A stretch of DNA of 64,000 nucleotides from Nitrosopumilus zosterae (lineage in GTDB: Archaea; Thermoproteota; Nitrososphaeria; Nitrososphaerales; Nitrosopumilaceae): NCBI RefSeq assembly GCF_025998175.1, contig NZ_AP026695.1, positions 1,556,581 through 1,620,580 of the forward strand, given 5' to 3'. Both the position numbers and the translations under genes were made by a program. The notes beneath the pieces were generated by a model. The model was not told the origin of the DNA, made no database searches, and saw nothing but the letters and a program-made list of their open reading frames with translations. Each line of letters begins with the position of its first letter. Position 1 is the first letter of the stretch. Below are positions 46,948 through 55,765 of this stretch, piece after piece.

Positions 46948-47892
46948 TTAAGGAAATATTTTTTGAGAGTTAATTGTTTGTAACATTTTTACTATATCAT
47001 AATTTGAAACAATTTTGGGATTGTAATCAAGATGTTTTCTATCAAACTGTATAAGGTTTGCAGCTTCACTCAAATTTTGAGTTAATTGAATTGGTTCAAA
47101 ATCCAATTTAAAAACCAAATCTTTAAACCGTTTATAAAATTGAGAGTTATTGAATTGGTGAGCAATAGTAGTGGTAAATGCTAATGCATGACCATGTGAA
47201 TAACCTTCATTTGAAAAAACGTATGATAGTGCATGACCCAATGTTGTTGATGAATTTCCAAATCCTAAACCTGAAAGCATGGAACCATATGCTAAATTTG
47301 ATAAGTTATTGCTAAGTATTGCATTTTCTAAAATATTAAATGCTTTTAAACACAAAAATTTTGTGAATGTATTTGCAAGTTTACTGTCATATGCTTCTGA
47401 ACATTGTGCACATGCATCTATTGCAGAATTTTTGATTACTTTGTCTGATGCAGAATTTAAAAAGAAAGGATCTACAATTGCAACATCAGCTAATAATTCA
47501 TCAGCATGAAAACTTATTTTTTTACCATCTATTTTTAAAACTGAAATTCTTGTTACTTCACTTCCACTTCCAAAAGTAGTAGGAATTAAAATTTTAGGTT
47601 TTTTTAATTTAAATGCAACATATTTTGCCACATCTAAAGAGCTGCCTCCCCCAATTCCTATTATTGAAGAATAATTATGAGTAAATTTTGAGAGAATTTT
47701 AGTTACTGTGTTCATTGAAGGGTTTGATTCAACCGAATCAAAAACTTCATAATTTTTGATTTTTAAATAATCAATCCATCCACGTGATATTGCTCCTGAT
47801 GAGGTTATAACTAACGTGTTTTCTGGATAAGAAAATTGACAGCAGGAATTTTTTCCAAAAATAATTTTTTTAGGTTGACGTATAGTATACAA
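46948..47892 (-). CDS. Iron-type alcohol dehydrogenase, probable phosphonoacetaldehyde reductase
   Basis: Fe-ADH family protein of 314 residues, somewhat shorter than the usual 380. NAD-binding block SSIIGIGGGSSLDVAKYVAF, IPTTFGSGSEVTRI, and metal-site candidates Asp in NSAIDACAQCSEAYDS, His in LGHALSYVF and EGYSHGHALAF. It lies divergently beside PEP mutase and phosphonopyruvate decarboxylase, so it probably reduces phosphonoacetaldehyde to 2-hydroxyethylphosphonate, the substrate of MpnS. Function inferred from context and the N. maritimus precedent. Confidence 0.85.
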   Translation of the reverse strand: MYTIRQPKKIIFGKNSCCQFSYPENTLVITSSGAISRGWIDYLKIKNYEVFDSVESNPSMNTVTKILSKFTHNYSSIIGIGGGSSLDVAKYVAFKLKKPKILIPTTFGSGSEVTRISVLKIDGKKISFHADELLADVAIVDPFFLNSASDKVIKNSAIDACAQCSEAYDSKLANTFTKFLCLKAFNILENAILSNNLSNLAYGSMLSGLGFGNSSTTLGHALSYVFSNEGYSHGHALAFTTTIAHQFNNSQFYKRFKDLVFKLDFEPIQLTQNLSEAANLIQFDRKHLDYNPKIVSNYDIVKMLQTINSQKIFP

Positions 47893-47927: not shown

Positions 47928-47953
47928 AAAACAATCGAGACTTGATAATATCT

Positions 47954-48850
47954 ATGACAAATTGTAAAATTTTGAAAAGAATGGTTCAATCAAAACCGAT
48001 TGTTAAGATTGGGGGGGCATTTGATGCATTATCTGCAAAATTAGTTGAAACCTCGGGATTCGATGCAATTTGGGCAGGAAGTTTTGCAATTTCAGCAACT
48101 CATGCTCTTCCAGATGCAAGTATTCTAACAATGACAGATTTTTTGAGATCTGCTGAAAATATGGTTGATGCATGTAATATTCCCGTTATTGCTGATTGTG
48201 ATACAGGTTTTGGGGGTCCACCAAATGTAAGTCATGCAGTAAAAAAATATGAAAAAGCCGGTATTGCGGGAATTAGCATAGAAGATAAAATTTTTCCAAA
48301 ACAAAACAGTCTTTTAAAAAATTCAAGACATGAATTGTTACCAGAAAAAGATTTTGTTGCAAAAATTATTGCAGCAAGAGAATCAAAAAAAGAGGATGAT
48401 TTTATGATAATTGCCAGAACTGAAGCATTAATAGCTGAAAAAGGGATGGATGAAGCTCTGAAAAGGGCAAATGCATATGAAAACGCTGGAGCAGATGCAA
48501 TATTAATTCATTCAAAAGAAAATACACCAGAAGAGATTTTTGAATTTTCTAAAAAATGGAATAGTGAAATTCCATTAGTTGTAGTTCCTACGTCATATCC
48601 ATCTGTAAAACTAGAGGAATTGATTACTCATAAAATAAAAATGGTAATATATGCAAACCAATCATTACGTGCAGCACATAACGTAATGTCAAAAGTATTA
48701 AAAGATATTATTCAGAAAGAAAGTATAGATAAAATAAACATCGAATTATCAAGTATGGAAGAGATTTTTAAACTTCAAGAAATGTATAAGATAAATGATC
48801 AAGAAAAAATTATTGAAAGTAATTTAAAAAAAATGGGTTATATTAATTGA
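47954..48850 (+). CDS. ppm: Phosphoenolpyruvate phosphomutase
   Basis: PEP mutase of about 298 residues, which isomerises PEP to phosphonopyruvate and commits carbon to phosphonates. The diagnostic block EDKIFPKQNSLL (about residues 110-121) separates true mutases from isocitrate-lyase relatives. Metal and substrate residues are in PVIADCDTGFGG and FMIIARTEAL. It overlaps the next gene by four bases, giving a three-gene phosphonate operon plus nucleotidyltransferase. ATG chosen on promoter spacing. Confidence 0.95.
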   Translation: MTNCKILKRMVQSKPIVKIGGAFDALSAKLVETSGFDAIWAGSFAISATHALPDASILTMTDFLRSAENMVDACNIPVIADCDTGFGGPPNVSHAVKKYEKAGIAGISIEDKIFPKQNSLLKNSRHELLPEKDFVAKIIAARESKKEDDFMIIARTEALIAEKGMDEALKRANAYENAGADAILIHSKENTPEEIFEFSKKWNSEIPLVVVPTSYPSVKLEELITHKIKMVIYANQSLRAAHNVMSKVLKDIIQKESIDKINIELSSMEEIFKLQEMYKINDQEKIIESNLKKMGYIN

Positions 48851-49335
48851 AAGAAAAAACACAGAGAGATATTTTTAAAATATTAATGAAGAAAGGTATT
48901 GAAAATTTTATTGGTGTTCCAGATTCAACAATAAAATATTTTATTGATGAAGGGTTAAAGGAAAAAAAGATTTTGATTACAACGAGAGAAGAAGAGGCAA
49001 TAGGTATTGCATCAGGAATGAGTCTAGCTGAAAGTGCATCGTTAGTATTTATGCAAAATGCAGGTTTTGCAAATTCACTTAGTACAATTACTTCACTTAT
49101 TCAACTTTATGAAATTCCAATGATATTATTAATTGGCTGGAGAGGATTTTTGAAAAATGATGCTCCAGAACATGAAAAAATTGGAAGAATACAACAAAAG
49201 TTGATCAAAACGATGGAAATAGAATCAAAGATAATTGATGATAAAAATTATAGAGATGTTTGTGATTGGGCCATAATAAAACTGAAAAAAGGAGAATTGG
49301 TGGGTTTAATAATTAAGAGGGATTTTCTTGATTAG
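48847..49335 (+). CDS. Phosphonopyruvate decarboxylase, N-terminal (PYR) subunit
   Basis: Protein of 162 residues matching the N-terminal half of thiamine-diphosphate decarboxylases: NFIGVPDSTIKYFIDEGLKE, ITTREEEAIGIASGMSLAES (catalytic Glu of the ThDP site) and the FMQNAGFANSLSTITSLIQL block. Alone it cannot bind the ThDP diphosphate; the C-terminal half is the next gene, which starts eight bases before this one ends. Together they decarboxylate phosphonopyruvate to phosphonoacetaldehyde. TTG start, four-base overlap with ppm. Confidence 0.9.
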   Translation: MKEKTQRDIFKILMKKGIENFIGVPDSTIKYFIDEGLKEKKILITTREEEAIGIASGMSLAESASLVFMQNAGFANSLSTITSLIQLYEIPMILLIGWRGFLKNDAPEHEKIGRIQQKLIKTMEIESKIIDDKNYRDVCDWAIIKLKKGELVGLIIKRDFLD

Positions 49336-49879
49336 AAAAGAAGCTGTACGACTTATTGCTAAAGAAATTGGTGATCAACCAATAATTTCATCAAATGGTT
49401 TTATGAGTAGGGATGTATTTGAGACAAATGAAAAAGAGAATAATTTTTACATGATTGGTTCAATGGGTTTAGCTTCGTCAATAGGATTGGGAATTGCATT
49501 AAAAAAACCCAAGCAAAAAATTCATGTTTTCGATGGAGATGGAAATATTTTAATGAATTTAGGTTCTTTAGTGACAATAGGATCATTAAAACCAAAAAAT
49601 TTAGTTCATTTTATTTTTGATAATAAATCACATGAATCTACTGGAGGTCAGCCAACTAGTTCTGATAAAATAGAATTAAAAAAAATTGCCCAGGCTGCAA
49701 AATTTAAAACATTTGAAATTATTAATAAAAAACAAATAAAAAAAATAATGTCTAAAGTTAAGAAAGAATCAGGACCAATATTTGTCATTGTTAGAATTGA
49801 CAAAGGAGGAGAAAAAAGTATCAGAGTAGGTATTGCACCTCCAAACATTAAAAATAGATTTATGAAGTCATTAAAATAA
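49328..49879 (+). CDS. Phosphonopyruvate decarboxylase, C-terminal (PP) subunit
   Basis: Protein of 183 residues matching the ThDP-diphosphate-binding half of the decarboxylase: GSMGLASSIGLGIALKKPKQ, the HVFDGDGNILMNLGSLVTIG block with the GDG metal motif, and FDNKSHESTGGQPTSS. It overlaps the PYR-half gene by eight bases. Most bacterial enzymes of this type are one chain of about 380 residues, so this is a split form. TTG start. Confidence 0.92.
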   Translation: MIRKEAVRLIAKEIGDQPIISSNGFMSRDVFETNEKENNFYMIGSMGLASSIGLGIALKKPKQKIHVFDGDGNILMNLGSLVTIGSLKPKNLVHFIFDNKSHESTGGQPTSSDKIELKKIAQAAKFKTFEIINKKQIKKIMSKVKKESGPIFVIVRIDKGGEKSIRVGIAPPNIKNRFMKSLK

Positions 49880-49881
49880 AA

Positions 49882-50631
49882 ATGAATGCAATTATAATAG
49901 CTGCAGGTTCGGGTAAGAGAATAAGTAATGAGGTAAAAGATATTCCAAAATCAATGGTAAAAGTTAATGAAAAATCAATTATAGAACATCAAATATCAGT
50001 GCTGAAACAAGCAGAAATTGATGAAATTTATGTGATTACTGGTCCTCATAGTGAAAAATTTGATTTAAATCATGTAAAGTACATTAAAGATCAGAACTAT
50101 ACCGAACATGATATTTTAGGAAGTTTAATGGAAGCAAAGAATTTCTTAAAAAATGATATACTGGTGTTATATTCAGATATAATTTTTGATTTACCAATTA
50201 TTCAACAAATGTTAGATTCAAAAGATGATATTTCAATTGCAATTGATATGAATTGGGAAAAAATGTATGAAGGAAGAACATTACATCCTAAATCAGAAGC
50301 AGAAAATGTAGAACTTAATTATGCAAAAAAAATTATCAAAATTCAAAAAAACATACAAAATAATAATAATTGCATAGGTGAATTTTTAGGAATTGTTAAA
50401 TTTTCGCCAACTGGATCAAAACTTTTTGTAAAAAAATATGAAGAATTAGCCAAAACACATATTGGAAACTTTCAGCAAGCAGATTCCATTTCAAAGGCAT
50501 ATCTAACAGATATGATTCAAGAATTAATTGACTCAAATATTCACGTGGAACCAATATTCATTTCTGGAAAATGGTGTGAAATAGATACCATACAAGATCT
50601 AAGAAATGCTGAAAAAATTTTTAAAAATTAA
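49882..50631 (+). CDS. Nucleotidyltransferase (CTP:phosphocholine type)
   Basis: NTP-transferase of 249 residues: IIIAAGSGKRISNEVKDIPKSMVKV at the N-terminus (nucleotide-binding G-x-G-x-R and Lys), VLYSDIIFD (metal Asp) and WCEIDTIQDLRNAEKIF. It resembles LicC-type phosphocholine cytidylyltransferases, and cytidylyltransferases of this type are known to activate 2-aminoethylphosphonate for transfer to glycans. Two bases after the decarboxylase gene, it probably activates the phosphonate as a CMP derivative; whether the substrate is HEP or MPn is not visible. It overlaps the convergent sulfatase-family gene by four bases. Confidence 0.85.
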   Translation: MNAIIIAAGSGKRISNEVKDIPKSMVKVNEKSIIEHQISVLKQAEIDEIYVITGPHSEKFDLNHVKYIKDQNYTEHDILGSLMEAKNFLKNDILVLYSDIIFDLPIIQQMLDSKDDISIAIDMNWEKMYEGRTLHPKSEAENVELNYAKKIIKIQKNIQNNNNCIGEFLGIVKFSPTGSKLFVKKYEELAKTHIGNFQQADSISKAYLTDMIQELIDSNIHVEPIFISGKWCEIDTIQDLRNAEKIFKN

Positions 50632-51752
50632 TCTTTTGTTTTAATTATTTTTTCTAATTCATTCCAAAGAATTTCTTCAATATCATTTTCCTCTCCAATC
50701 AAATTATTGTTTTCGTCAGGATCATGTTCAAGATCATAGAGTTCCTTTGTTCCATCAAATTCATTAAAAATTAACTTCCACTTTGAATTTCGGATAGATT
50801 TTACGTTTGGCTCTTTAGGAGGAGCTTTTTCATGCAATGGATTGCCTGTTTCTGAAAAAGCATAAAGTTCAGGATATGAGGCTCCATTAATCAATGGAAG
50901 AAGAGAAACTCCATCTAATTTACTATACTGATCATCCAAAGGAATTTCTAAATAATCTAAAATTGTGGGCATAAAATCAATTGTTCGTATTTGTTGATTG
51001 ATTTCTTTAGAATTATAATTAGGAATTAAAAAATAAGTAAATGTTTTCAACGTATAATCATAACAAAATGCACCATATGCTCTCTCACCGACTTTTTCAC
51101 CAATACTAATTCCATGATCTGACATTACCAAAATAATGGAATTGTGATCAAGATCTAGTAGAAAAATTTTTTCTAGAATTTCATTTAGGTATATTTGAGC
51201 ATCATTAAATAAAGAATCATATCGAAAATTATTTTTTTCTTTATTCAAAAAAAAGTCCTCACTGAAATTATCATATATTTTTAAAACTTCATTCATTATC
51301 CCAGTATGGATTTTACTATAATGTAAATAAAGAAAAAAATTCTCACAATTAGAATTAGAGGTTATCTCATCTAGCAAATTCTTATGTCGTTCAATTAAAT
51401 TGTCATTTAACTCATCGTGTATCACATAGTTATCAAAACCTTGTTTTGGAACAACTAATTGGTTAATTACGTCTGCATGAGTATAGTATTTTTCATCTTT
51501 CAGATATTCTGTCAATGTTTTAAATTTATTTTTTTTAAATTTGTAAGTTGACCAATAGCTGTTAGTACCAGTTCTTGAACCATAACTTCCACTAAAAACT
51601 GCATGCATTGCAGCTATTGTATGAGGTCCATAAGTGATTGAATTTTTGAAAAAAATTGATTTTGATTGTAAGTTTTGAAAAACAGTAGAATTTTGTGCTT
51701 TATCCAGTCTTCCACCATCAATCATTATTATGATAACATTTTTTCGATTCAT
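50628..51752 (-). CDS. Alkaline-phosphatase-superfamily 'sulfatase' with Thr nucleophile
   Basis: Sulfatase-fold protein of 374 residues. The metal-site Asp is in IIIMIDGGRLDK, and the later metal block is VMSDHGISIGEK. At the formylglycine position the motif reads THTIAAMHAVFSG-like (GPHTIAAMHAVFSG), with Thr where sulfatases have Cys or Ser, so it is unlikely to be a classical sulfatase. Thr nucleophiles are usual in phosphoglycerol and phosphoethanolamine transferases. It lies between the nucleotidyltransferase and MpnS genes and could transfer or remove the phosphonate on a glycan. No membrane anchor or signal peptide seen. Confidence 0.82.
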   Translation of the reverse strand: MNRKNVIIIMIDGGRLDKAQNSTVFQNLQSKSIFFKNSITYGPHTIAAMHAVFSGSYGSRTGTNSYWSTYKFKKNKFKTLTEYLKDEKYYTHADVINQLVVPKQGFDNYVIHDELNDNLIERHKNLLDEITSNSNCENFFLYLHYSKIHTGIMNEVLKIYDNFSEDFFLNKEKNNFRYDSLFNDAQIYLNEILEKIFLLDLDHNSIILVMSDHGISIGEKVGERAYGAFCYDYTLKTFTYFLIPNYNSKEINQQIRTIDFMPTILDYLEIPLDDQYSKLDGVSLLPLINGASYPELYAFSETGNPLHEKAPPKEPNVKSIRNSKWKLIFNEFDGTKELYDLEHDPDENNNLIGEENDIEEILWNELEKIIKTKD

Positions 51753-51769
51753 GATTAAAAAAGTGATAA

Positions 51770-53140
51770 TTAGTTTTTGCCTTGTGGATCAAACCATTGC
51801 ATTGTTTCTGAAATTGCTCTTTGTGCATTTTTTTTTCCAACAATAGACAATTCTCTTTGAGAATCTCCTGCTATTTTACCTCCGATCCTTAAAATCAATA
51901 ATTTTCCATTACCCCTAAAATTATGACTAATGAATGGTTTTCCATAGATAGAATCACCTGGATTGATTCTTTCAGAATAATTTTTTTCGCCATATTTCCA
52001 GTTTACAGTGATAGTTGTATCTCCAACATTGTACACATATTGATGTAGACCAGATTGTAAATCATATTCAGAATTTTCAGAATTTCTTATAATAACTTCA
52101 AATGCTTTAGAAAAAGGTAATGCAGATGTACCTGCCAATTCAATAAATTCGTATGCTTTTGAATTTTCAGGGTAGAGCCATTTCCTACATTTATCATGAT
52201 ACTTCACAATTACTTTGTTTTCAGTCTTATCATTAGGAAGTAAATCTCGAATATTGATAGTTAGTGCATTAGCAATTTTTTGAAGATCAGACATCTGAGG
52301 AAATTCTAGTTTATTTTCAAAATTTTTTATCTTATCAACATCTAAGCCAGTTCGTTTAGATAATTCTTCAATGGAAATATTAGAAATTTCCCTATGAAAT
52401 TTGAGTAATGAGCTACTTGCTGATTCTTTTGTAGAGAAATCAAGTGCAAATTTTGAACCTAATTCAACTGATAATCCAGACAACTCTTGTTGAACATCAC
52501 CAGTAAGTTTTCCACCATAAGTTAGAGCAAGAATCAAACCATTTTCTTTACATCCTTTTCGTGAAGTAAATGTATGAGGCGTAAAAGGAGTAATATACAT
52601 AGAATCACCAGTGTTCATTATCGCAACTTTTTTGTTTCCAGATTCATCTTTATAGTAAAAATTCACATCACCAATAAAGTAAGTAAATTGATGCATAAAA
52701 TGGCCATTATTCCATTGAACATCAAGATTAGTAGGTTCATTATCATCAACATAACATAATTCAAGTATCCATTCCGGTCTAAATGGTGCTACAGTACTCA
52801 TAGCAGTATCTCGGTATTCATAGTATGGTCTTCCAGCTCTGTTCATAATTCGACTAGATTTTTGAGATTCATCAGCACGCATGATTTTAATTCCCAATGG
52901 GCAATCATCTTGAACAATGTAAAAATCCCTAGCATTAATTGGCCAAATTTCTATTGCTTTATTGATTAATTCTGGAGTAAGTGGTTTTGTTCCTTCTATT
53001 ATTGCTTGAATTTCTTCTAGCGTAACATTCAATTCATTTGCAGCATCTTCAGGTCTTCTTTTAATATCATTTAAAATTCCAAGGAAATTTTTTCCTGATT
53101 TAATTTGATGTAAATTAATAATACTTTCTTCTTTCTGCAT
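51770..53140 (-). CDS. mpnS: Methylphosphonate synthase
   Basis: MpnS of 456 residues cleaves 2-hydroxyethylphosphonate with O2 to methylphosphonate and CO2. Two cupin lobes flank a central helix-turn-helix (about 240-300). The iron ligands in lobe 1 appear as His147 and Gln151 in NNGHFMHQFTYF and His189 in TPFTPHTF, giving the 2-His-1-Gln set; this matches N. maritimus MpnS (His148, Gln152, His190 as I recall) with an offset of one. Gln rather than Glu separates MpnS from hydroxyethylphosphonate dioxygenase. Substrate is supplied by the divergent ppm operon and Fe-ADH. Confidence 0.95.
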   Translation of the reverse strand: MQKEESIINLHQIKSGKNFLGILNDIKRRPEDAANELNVTLEEIQAIIEGTKPLTPELINKAIEIWPINARDFYIVQDDCPLGIKIMRADESQKSSRIMNRAGRPYYEYRDTAMSTVAPFRPEWILELCYVDDNEPTNLDVQWNNGHFMHQFTYFIGDVNFYYKDESGNKKVAIMNTGDSMYITPFTPHTFTSRKGCKENGLILALTYGGKLTGDVQQELSGLSVELGSKFALDFSTKESASSSLLKFHREISNISIEELSKRTGLDVDKIKNFENKLEFPQMSDLQKIANALTINIRDLLPNDKTENKVIVKYHDKCRKWLYPENSKAYEFIELAGTSALPFSKAFEVIIRNSENSEYDLQSGLHQYVYNVGDTTITVNWKYGEKNYSERINPGDSIYGKPFISHNFRGNGKLLILRIGGKIAGDSQRELSIVGKKNAQRAISETMQWFDPQGKN

Positions 53141-53267
53141 AAAATTTACTACTAATTCTGATAAATAGTCTTTTCGTATTTTTTGAGTTAATTTACAAAT
53201 TTTTACTTAATTATCCAGAATTAAATGATTAATCAAAGTAATAAACAAGATAATAAAAGACGAGTCA

Positions 53268-54398
53268 TTGAAATTAATCAGAAATTTTGGTTCTATGGTG
53301 GCCGGAGATACCATTTCTGGATCTATTGGAAGTGTTTTTTGGTTATTTTTAGCCACATTGTTAACTGTTAGTGATTATGGTCAGATTCAATTTTTGATAA
53401 GTATTGCAGCTTTAGCAGCTGGTTTCTCAATGATAGCCAATAGTAATACAATAACAGTTTTTGAAGTGAAAAAGAAAGATTTGACAGGAATTTTATTTTT
53501 AATATCATTAGGAATTGGTGGAATTGTATCTTTAGTTTTAGTTATAATTTATTCTAGAATAGACATCATTTTCCTTACATTTGGAATCATAGTAGGTGAA
53601 ATGGTAATTGGGTATTTTTTGGGGAAAAAATTATTTTATAAGTATGCAACATTTTTAATTTTACAAAAAATCTTAATGATATCTCTTGCATTAGGATTAT
53701 ATTTTTTCATGGGTTTAGATGGAATAATTTATGGAATCAGTTTATCATATATTCCTTTAGTAATAATTGTTTTAAAAAACATCAAAGAATCTGAATTTGA
53801 TTTCAAATTACTTAAAAAAAATTCAGGTTTCATAATTAATAATTATGGAACAAGACTTGTAGTTTATTCAAAAAGAAATTTGGATAAAATAATTATTGCA
53901 CCAATTTTAGGATTTCAAGTATTAGGGGAATTTGCTTTAGGATTTCAAGTCTATCTTGTAATGATGTTATTTTCAAGCATATCTTTCAAATTTTTGCTTT
54001 TAAAAGATTCAGAAGGATATAATTCAAAAAAATTCAAGATGTTTGTTTTTACAATTTCAGTATTAATTTCTATTCTAGGTGTTTTTATAGCACCAATTGT
54101 GATACCAACTTTATTCCCAAATTTTATTGATTCAGTTGAAATCATTCAGATTCTTAGTTTAGCTGTAATTCCAAATACAATAGTATTATTTTATTCTTCA
54201 AGTTTCCTAGGAAATGAAAATAGTAGAGTTGTATTAACAGGTGTTATTATGAGCACAGTAGTGTATTTGTCATTAATAGTGTTTTTAAGTCAAACTTTAG
54301 GATTGCAAGGAATAGGGATAAGTTTTGTATTGAGTTCCATCATTTACGCAATATTTCTATCAATCATTCATAAAAAAACCAAAAATCTAAAAATATAA
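53268..54398 (+). CDS. Polysaccharide flippase-type membrane protein
   Basis: Polytopic membrane protein of 376 residues with about ten to eleven helices, of the Wzx/MATE-like polysaccharide transporter class (MVAGDTISGSIGSVFWLFLATLL at the N-terminus, one DYGQIQFL loop typical of the family). It would move a lipid-linked glycan across the membrane. It is shorter than the usual 400-480 residues. Divergent from mpnS, convergent with the second sulfatase-family gene. TTG start. Confidence 0.8.
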   Translation: MKLIRNFGSMVAGDTISGSIGSVFWLFLATLLTVSDYGQIQFLISIAALAAGFSMIANSNTITVFEVKKKDLTGILFLISLGIGGIVSLVLVIIYSRIDIIFLTFGIIVGEMVIGYFLGKKLFYKYATFLILQKILMISLALGLYFFMGLDGIIYGISLSYIPLVIIVLKNIKESEFDFKLLKKNSGFIINNYGTRLVVYSKRNLDKIIIAPILGFQVLGEFALGFQVYLVMMLFSSISFKFLLLKDSEGYNSKKFKMFVFTISVLISILGVFIAPIVIPTLFPNFIDSVEIIQILSLAVIPNTIVLFYSSSFLGNENSRVVLTGVIMSTVVYLSLIVFLSQTLGLQGIGISFVLSSIIYAIFLSIIHKKTKNLKI

Positions 54399-54406
54399 AA
54401 AATATT

Positions 54407-55765
54407 TTACATATAACCCATTTTTTTTAATTCTTCTTCTATTGCACCTTCGTCGTCTTTAGAAATCTCATATTTAATAGGAATTGAATTTTTTTTCATG
54501 TTCACAATAATTTCTTCCATGGAAATTACTACTGATTGATTTTTCTCAGCAATGTTATTTTCTTCATTTGGATCATTTTCTAGATCATAAAGAGTAACAT
54601 TTTTTGTAGAATCATTTCTAGACCGCCAGTATTTGTATTTTGGAGTTCGTAATCCTATAATGTTTCCATGTAAAGTAGGATTTTTCGCATTTTTGAAATT
54701 TCTAGCACCTGTTTCAATATACGTATAAGAATCCTTTTGAGACGGATTAGAAATTAAAGGGACTAGGCTTTGACCATCAATATTTTTTATATTGGAAGAA
54801 ATTTCCACCAAATCAACAATTGTTGGAAAAATATCAACTTGTTTAACTTGGTTTGTAATTATTTTTGGATAATTTATTCCAAAACCGGTAAAAATCAAAG
54901 GTATTCTAATTAACTCATCAAAAAGATGGTTTTGGCCTCTTCCTTCTAATGCAATAAGTTCCCTATCAGAAAGTTCTTTTGAAAGTTTGGCAGACTTATA
55001 TTTTCTTTTTAGAGATTGATATGCTACAAACAATCTTAAACCTAGAGGCTCCAATATAGGTAATTTTTGTTTGCCTTTTTTCAATAAAATATTTACTTTA
55101 GGAATTTTTCCCCAATCATCTACAACTGGAATATGATCACCATGATCTGCACTAATAATCAATAAAGTTTTTTTTAAATCAATTTTTTCGAAAAACTTTC
55201 CTATCCAAGAATCAATTGCCGAAATCATTCTATCATAAGGAGTTTTTCCAAATTTTTCAGAATCAAATTCTTTTGGAACGTAAAAAGGTGCATGTAAATC
55301 CATTAAATGAATATAATAAAACCAGGGTTCAGTAAGATTTTTTTCTAATCGTTTAACAATTTGTTCACCTATTCCACCTACAAGTTGAAGCCATGATTCT
55401 CGTTTATCATAAACATATGCATCAGTTTCTGTCATATTTGCTGTCATTTTAAGAAAAAATGAAGAGTCAGGTATTGTTGCATATATTTTATATCCATTGT
55501 CTTTTAAAATTTGAAAATATGTTTGTGTGTTATTATCATAACTAAAGTGTGTAATTCCTGTTTTGAAAGGATATTTAGCTGTGACTAAACTACCGATGCT
55601 TAATCCCGTAGTATCAGATGTACTAATAGCTTGAGTGAAACAAAGTCCATTTTTGATCAGATTATCAATATTTGGTGTTAAAGAGCTCTTATTTTTTCCA
55701 TAAATTTTATCTGCTCGTAAAGAATCAATTGTCAATAGTAAGATATTTGGTTTCATAATTCTCAC
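54407..55765 (-). CDS. Second alkaline-phosphatase-superfamily 'sulfatase' with Thr nucleophile
   Basis: Sulfatase-fold protein of 452 residues. Metal residues are in LLLTIDSLRADKIYG and IISADHGDHIPVVD; the C-terminal TPKYKYWRSRNDS block with ENDPNEENNIA is typical of the family. At the formylglycine position the sequence is DTTGLSIGSLVTAKYP, again Thr rather than Cys or Ser. It is a different sequence from the 374-residue protein at 50628 but shares the same change. The role is probably transfer or hydrolysis of a phospho- or phosphonodiester on surface glycans. Confidence 0.82.
   Translation of the reverse strand: MRIMKPNILLLTIDSLRADKIYGKNKSSLTPNIDNLIKNGLCFTQAISTSDTTGLSIGSLVTAKYPFKTGITHFSYDNNTQTYFQILKDNGYKIYATIPDSSFFLKMTANMTETDAYVYDKRESWLQLVGGIGEQIVKRLEKNLTEPWFYYIHLMDLHAPFYVPKEFDSEKFGKTPYDRMISAIDSWIGKFFEKIDLKKTLLIISADHGDHIPVVDDWGKIPKVNILLKKGKQKLPILEPLGLRLFVAYQSLKRKYKSAKLSKELSDRELIALEGRGQNHLFDELIRIPLIFTGFGINYPKIITNQVKQVDIFPTIVDLVEISSNIKNIDGQSLVPLISNPSQKDSYTYIETGARNFKNAKNPTLHGNIIGLRTPKYKYWRSRNDSTKNVTLYDLENDPNEENNIAEKNQSVVISMEEIIVNMKKNSIPIKYEISKDDEGAIEEELKKMGYM

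Follow-up and report, generated by a model that had tools for sequence, protein, structure and literature searches.

The window analysed here, a 64,000-nucleotide stretch of DNA (1556581-1620580), is part of a 1.78 Mb Nitrosopumilus-like genome. It holds a cluster in which an iron-containing alcohol dehydrogenase is followed by phosphoenolpyruvate mutase (PepM), a split phosphonopyruvate decarboxylase (Ppd), a cytidylyltransferase-like protein, a sulfatase-like protein (A), an MpnS-like protein, a membrane protein, a second sulfatase-like protein (B) and then sugar genes (Table 1). In almost every PepM locus of the family the alcohol dehydrogenase lies next to PepM, at 59-66% identity. The A gene follows mpnS on the same strand at a distance of 17 bases, and its 3' end overlaps the cytidylyltransferase gene by 4 bases; MpnS-like copies adjoin A in five related loci (58-69% identity). 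Start sites of A and B are those given in the list of open reading frames.

Table 1. Coordinates of the cluster genes and of the predicted nucleophile codons within the window
Feature	Position	Strand	Match or basis
Iron-containing alcohol dehydrogenase, phosphonoacetaldehyde reductase-like (Pdh/PhpC)	46948..47892	-	PF00465, PF25137
Phosphoenolpyruvate mutase (PepM)	47942..48850	+	PF13714, E 1.6e-60
Phosphonopyruvate decarboxylase, N half	48847..49335	+	PF02776; split pair kept in relatives
Phosphonopyruvate decarboxylase, C half	49328..49879	+	PF02775
Cytidylyltransferase of the LicC/PntC kind, predicted CMP-phosphonate maker	49882..50631	+	PF12804; LicC 1jyk, PntC 6pd1
Protein A, Thr-nucleophile S1-fold enzyme, candidate CMP-phosphonate transferase	50628..51752	-	374 aa
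Codon of A Thr45, predicted nucleophile	51618..51620	-	Alignment to 6pt6; homologue conservation
MpnS-like methylphosphonate synthase	51770..53140	-	Named in the preliminary description; Pfam gives cupin and helix-turn-helix only
Hydrophobic multi-span protein, flippase-like	53268..54398	+	No Pfam match; outside the conserved module
Protein B, Thr/Ser-nucleophile S1-fold enzyme	54407..55765	-	452 aa
Codon of B Thr53, predicted nucleophile	55607..55609	-	Alignment to 6pt6; Thr 18 and Ser 5 of 23

The preliminary description proposed that A and B, beside a cytidylyltransferase and a flippase, might attach phosphonate to a surface glycan. The best solved relatives of the cytidylyltransferase are LicC (1jyk, E 2e-12) and the Treponema denticola PntC (6pd1, E 2e-9), which accords with that proposal, and we predict from its sequence that the enzyme makes CMP-phosphonate. 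The flippase-like gene is not conserved in other mpnS loci.

Fold and active site of A and B

A and B each match PF00884 (Sulfatase) and SGSH_C in Pfam, and no third PF00884 protein is encoded in the genome. Foldseek searches with the models of both returned S1 sulfatases as the best matches. With these enzymes (choline sulfatase 6g5z, S1_16 9fo1, S1_25 6hr5) A and B share the overall fold, including the C-terminal subdomain, and the Asp and Asp-His metal ligands. They differ in that Thr replaces formylglycine and that the C/S-x-P-x-R signature is missing. At the second position of the DD pair, A has Gly, Ser, Gln or Ala in place of Asp, and most B have Ser or Gly. In length, too, A falls short of most S1 sulfatases.

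HMMER alignment to the solved sulfatase 6pt6, itself a catalytic C84S mutant, placed Thr at the nucleophile position in both proteins (GPH-T45-IAAM in A, DT-T53-GLSIG in B), as the preliminary description had it. In the AlphaFold models (mean pLDDT 94 for A and 85 for B), T45 and T53 are each the first residue of a helix (45-54 and 53-62), where enzymes of this superfamily normally have their nucleophile. The claim that the metal-binding Asp residues are kept also holds: D12, D212 and H213 of A are present in 48/48 homologues, where R15, D17, H149, G214, E223 and K326 are invariant as well, and D14, D207 and H208 of B are invariant among its homologues. Position 45 of A is Thr in 16/16, 33/34 and 47/48 members of three homologue sets (the remaining one is Ser), and all mpnS-linked A homologues keep Thr; this residue and the metal ligands are conserved across phyla. 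The corresponding position in B homologues is Thr in 12/14 and 18/23, otherwise Ser and never Cys.

Thr by itself is ordinary in PF00884: of the 59 sequences in the Pfam seed, SulfAtlas lists 30 with Thr (PMC5066984). The sulfatase signature, searched as C/S-x-P/A-x-R, occurs in none of 48 A and 36 B homologues, and the second signature was not found in them, one misplaced chance match aside. The genome's only match to the formylglycine-generating enzyme family is EgtB, and we rejected formylglycine formation by an enzyme of this family, which is what the search covered. These results support the view that A and B are not formylglycine sulfatases.

Neither protein contains a transmembrane segment or hydrophobic span (no hydropathy window above 1.6). 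The first metal ligand lies at residue 12 in A and 14 in B, and a signal peptide therefore does not fit either protein. With no anchor and no room for a signal peptide, A and B should be cytosolic, and an extracytoplasmic lipid donor is unlikely.

Genomic context of A and B

Across 300 genomes of the order, PepM (scored as present above 220 bits) was found in 11. A shares a cluster with the PepM-Ppd-cytidylyltransferase run in 10 of these, and in the eleventh (G298) the contig stops inside the cytidylyltransferase gene, before the expected A gene. Paralogues of A, at 33-40% identity, adjoin another cytidylyltransferase, a class I amidotransferase and a PPDK-like protein; six genomes have a PPDK-like protein above 700 bits, and the same six, no others, have the paralogues. 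The amidotransferase is matched best by gamma-glutamyl-CDP-amidate hydrolase, at 125 bits (next match 68, curated cut-off 250). In Campylobacter, Cj1415-Cj1418 make the CDP-phosphoramidate donor (PMC11800397). The paralogue clusters contain a cytidylyltransferase, a kinase resembling PEP synthase and a protein resembling gamma-glutamyl-CDP-amidate hydrolase, and by sequence the module is thus like the set of the C. jejuni O-methyl phosphoramidate pathway, with a glutamine-kinase-like and an amidate-hydrolase-like enzyme. The transferases of the C. jejuni pathway are Cj1421 and Cj1422.

Taking both modules together, A is present in 15 of the 16 genomes that carry one and in 2 of the other 284 (G108 and G051); the tally is 15 with module and A, 1 with module and no A, 2 with A alone and 282 with neither (Fisher 3e-22, a value that ignores shared ancestry). 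The preliminary description had placed the two proteins beside mpnS. Three PepM clusters in which MpnS was not found (G105, G156, G225) nevertheless carry A with the PepM and cytidylyltransferase module, and the paralogues follow a phosphoramidate-type module; we thus rejected mpnS linkage as the defining association. A is tied to the cytidylyltransferase module, not to mpnS. The A gene of G225 (L105:10363-11486) is split into two overlapping frames, by sequencing error or decay.

A and B also need to be considered separately. A is about 60-71% identical among the mpnS/PepM loci of the family, and B mostly 34-45% between loci (62% in G168); the divergence of A is that of a pathway enzyme, and the divergence of B mostly that of a variable glycan gene. 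B occurs in 16 of the 300 genomes and A in 17, 15 having both. Some loci hold two or three B, whereas several have A with no B beside it (L113, L134, L135), in part on short contigs. B might serve as a partner specific for the acceptor, or as a diesterase.

Outside the order, a profile scan over named genomes detected A in Omnitrophota, Diapherotrites, Woesearchaeota, Pacearchaeota, a gammaproteobacterium, Acidobacteria, Anammoxibacter and Nitrospina, and the association with donor genes is seen again in several of these archaeal and bacterial phyla. A donor gene (cytidylyltransferase, PepM/Ppd or glutamine-kinase/amidotransferase) lies within 12 kb of 39 of 47 distinct A homologues, and in 28 of 37 a cytidylyltransferase is at most 60 bases from A. 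Two loci (L133, L135) run PepM with a fused CTP_transf_like domain, Ppd, Pdh and A. The activating enzyme here is of another family than the LicC/PntC kind and A is still present, which indicates that A follows the chemistry and not one activating enzyme. Both nucleotidyltransferase families are known PepM partners, and about two-thirds of phosphonate clusters hold one (PMC6697681).

In the tree, thaumarchaeal phosphonate-linked A proteins form one clade (support 99) that includes two unlinked members, and phosphoramidate-linked A proteins fall mainly in two others (support 99 and 100). The phosphonate label changes 5 times on this tree, compared with 16.3 in shuffles. In L143 a single cluster carries two A genes, which belong to different phosphoramidate clades.

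Several further observations concern single loci. Two contigs named as Patescibacteria (L118, L120) carry thaumarchaeal phosphonate clusters and are probably misbinned. Gene sets like that of Campylobacter phosphoramidate synthesis were seen in L106, L107, L111, L114, L141, L143, L145, L147 and L150, which come from ammonia-oxidising archaea, Nitrospina and a gammaproteobacterium. Some A homologues have a small methyltransferase nearby (L140:8536-9192, L142:3153-3824, L144:6068-6742), in one case inside a phosphoramidate-type cluster, and these enzymes are candidates for O-methylating phosphoramidate. A supported A branch (L109:5104-7937, L139:2-2795) has an ATP sulfurylase-like neighbour, and in L139 also a cytidylyltransferase fragment; here the donor may be of a third type, for example adenylyl sulfate. 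Donor-less A homologues lie near a protein of the type I phosphodiesterase/nucleotide pyrophosphatase family (L138:11132-12514, L136:8415-10001, L144:7920-9635), and one A copy (L148:6430-9994), not close to a donor module, is flanked on both sides by genes for ABC transporter permeases.

Candidate function of A

A is best explained as a member of the alkaline-phosphatase superfamily with an S1-sulfatase fold. We consider it probable, with some reserve, that A is a cytosolic metal-dependent transferase passing phosphonate from a CMP donor to a glycan by way of Thr45, and we infer the donor and acceptor as well as the covalent intermediate and the act of transfer. PepM, Ppd and Pdh, with MpnS where present, would make 2-hydroxyethyl- or methylphosphonate, which the cytidylyltransferase would couple to CMP. 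Thr45, held with D12, D212 and H213 around a metal, would then attack the phosphonate phosphorus; CMP would leave, and a hydroxyl group on the precursor of a cell-surface glycan would receive the phosphonyl group. The A paralogues would do likewise with phosphoramidate from a cytidine-diphosphoramidate donor.

LicD is the transferase of a comparable bacterial step. LicD-type transfer, from CDP-choline or CMP-AEP, resembles the step predicted for A in moving a nucleotide-activated phosphorus group to a surface glycan near a LicC/PntC-type cytidylyltransferase, but the protein families are unrelated. We rejected LicD itself as an alternative transferase, the gene having not been found in this genome, and likewise the single CDP-alcohol phosphotransferase, which lies away from the locus; the module conserves no transferase candidate besides A. 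The polysaccharide of marine high-molecular-weight organic matter carries esters of methylphosphonate (MPn) and of 2-hydroxyethylphosphonate (2-HEP) (PMC9381506), in keeping with clusters that have MpnS and others that lack it. Against a transferase stand the hydrolases among the Thr enzymes of the superfamily, the 8 of 47 homologues with no donor gene in the flank, and a conservation of A higher than expected for an enzyme recognising fast-changing glycans. The amidotransferase score, below its curated cut-off, also weakens the phosphoramidate side.

Hydrolysis is one alternative. A could free phosphonate from CMP-phosphonate, as FomD does in fosfomycin biosynthesis with another fold; nucleotide pyrophosphatases of the superfamily use Thr to hydrolyse NMP diesters, and FomD is a precedent for transient CMP activation. 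Fom1 makes CMP-HEP (PMC6697681). We regard this as unlikely, given that the A family also occurs in CDP-amidate-type clusters, where hydrolysis would waste the product, that the clusters are rich in glycan genes and that MPn is found polymer-bound. Transfer is the simplest common function. Hydrolysis would suit a transient CMP-phosphonate but not the amidate. We give the same low weight to A as a phosphodiesterase for editing or recycling esters of phosphonate or phosphoramidate that a different enzyme has made, a role suggested by the S1_0 enzymes of the same fold, which are phosphonate monoester hydrolases/phosphodiesterases (PMC5066984). The lack of LicD, of a CDP-alcohol phosphotransferase at the locus and of any further conserved transferase candidate in the module speaks against this, as does the apparent cytosolic location of A, apart from the finished polymer.

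A less probable arrangement still is that B is the glycan transferase and A takes the phosphonyl group off CMP and hands it to an intermediate carrier. The co-occurrence of A and B, the conservation of A like the donor pathway and of B mostly like glycan genes, the Thr/Ser kept in B homologues and the loci with several B would suit it, but no carrier is known and B is missing beside A in several loci, such as those named above.

The preliminary description had likened A and B to LtaS or EptA, as lipid-donor transferases outside the membrane, and part of the likeness stands. Like LtaS, EptA and MCR-1, A has Thr with Asp/Glu, Asp and His around the metal, and the covalent transfer of those enzymes may by analogy be shared. 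The set D12/T45/D212/H213 of A has its counterpart in E246/T285/D465/H466 of MCR-1, and relatives of MCR-1 have been found with this Thr phosphorylated (PMC5175174). Those enzymes, however, are membrane-anchored, work outside the cell and use a lipid donor, whereas A has no anchor and its closest fold differs; no LtaS or EptA entry appears among the 50 best Foldseek matches of either model. We therefore rejected LtaS/EptA-type transfer as very improbable. Equally improbable are ordinary sulfatases, which PF00884, SGSH_C and the S1 fold would suggest and the missing signatures and dedicated formylglycine-generating enzyme contradict.

Returning to nucleotide-donor transfer by A, we put forward more tentatively, as a possibility on the weaker side of even, that a single cytosolic Thr family of sulfatase fold draws on several nucleotide donors to decorate surface glycans, with CMP-phosphonate as the source of phosphonate, cytidine diphosphoramidate as that of phosphoramidate and perhaps, in the L109/L139 branch, adenylyl sulfate as that of sulfate. 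An "arylsulfatase A" has already been recorded as a neighbour of phosphonate and mpnS genes (PMC9381506). A literature search found no description of a sulfatase-like phosphonyl transferase, in agreement with the earlier suggestion that this attachment step had not been described.

Marine microbial methylphosphonate is thought to be the source of methane in oxygenated surface water, and we know of no enzyme that attaches it to polysaccharide in archaea. A is a concrete candidate gene, with a mechanism, for this step. If the proposal is true, a nucleotide-donor transferase would exist in a fold known for hydrolysis and lipid-donor transfer, the decoration of surfaces with phosphonate and with phosphoramidate would be linked, and phosphoramidate-decorated surfaces would be predicted in ammonia-oxidising archaea.
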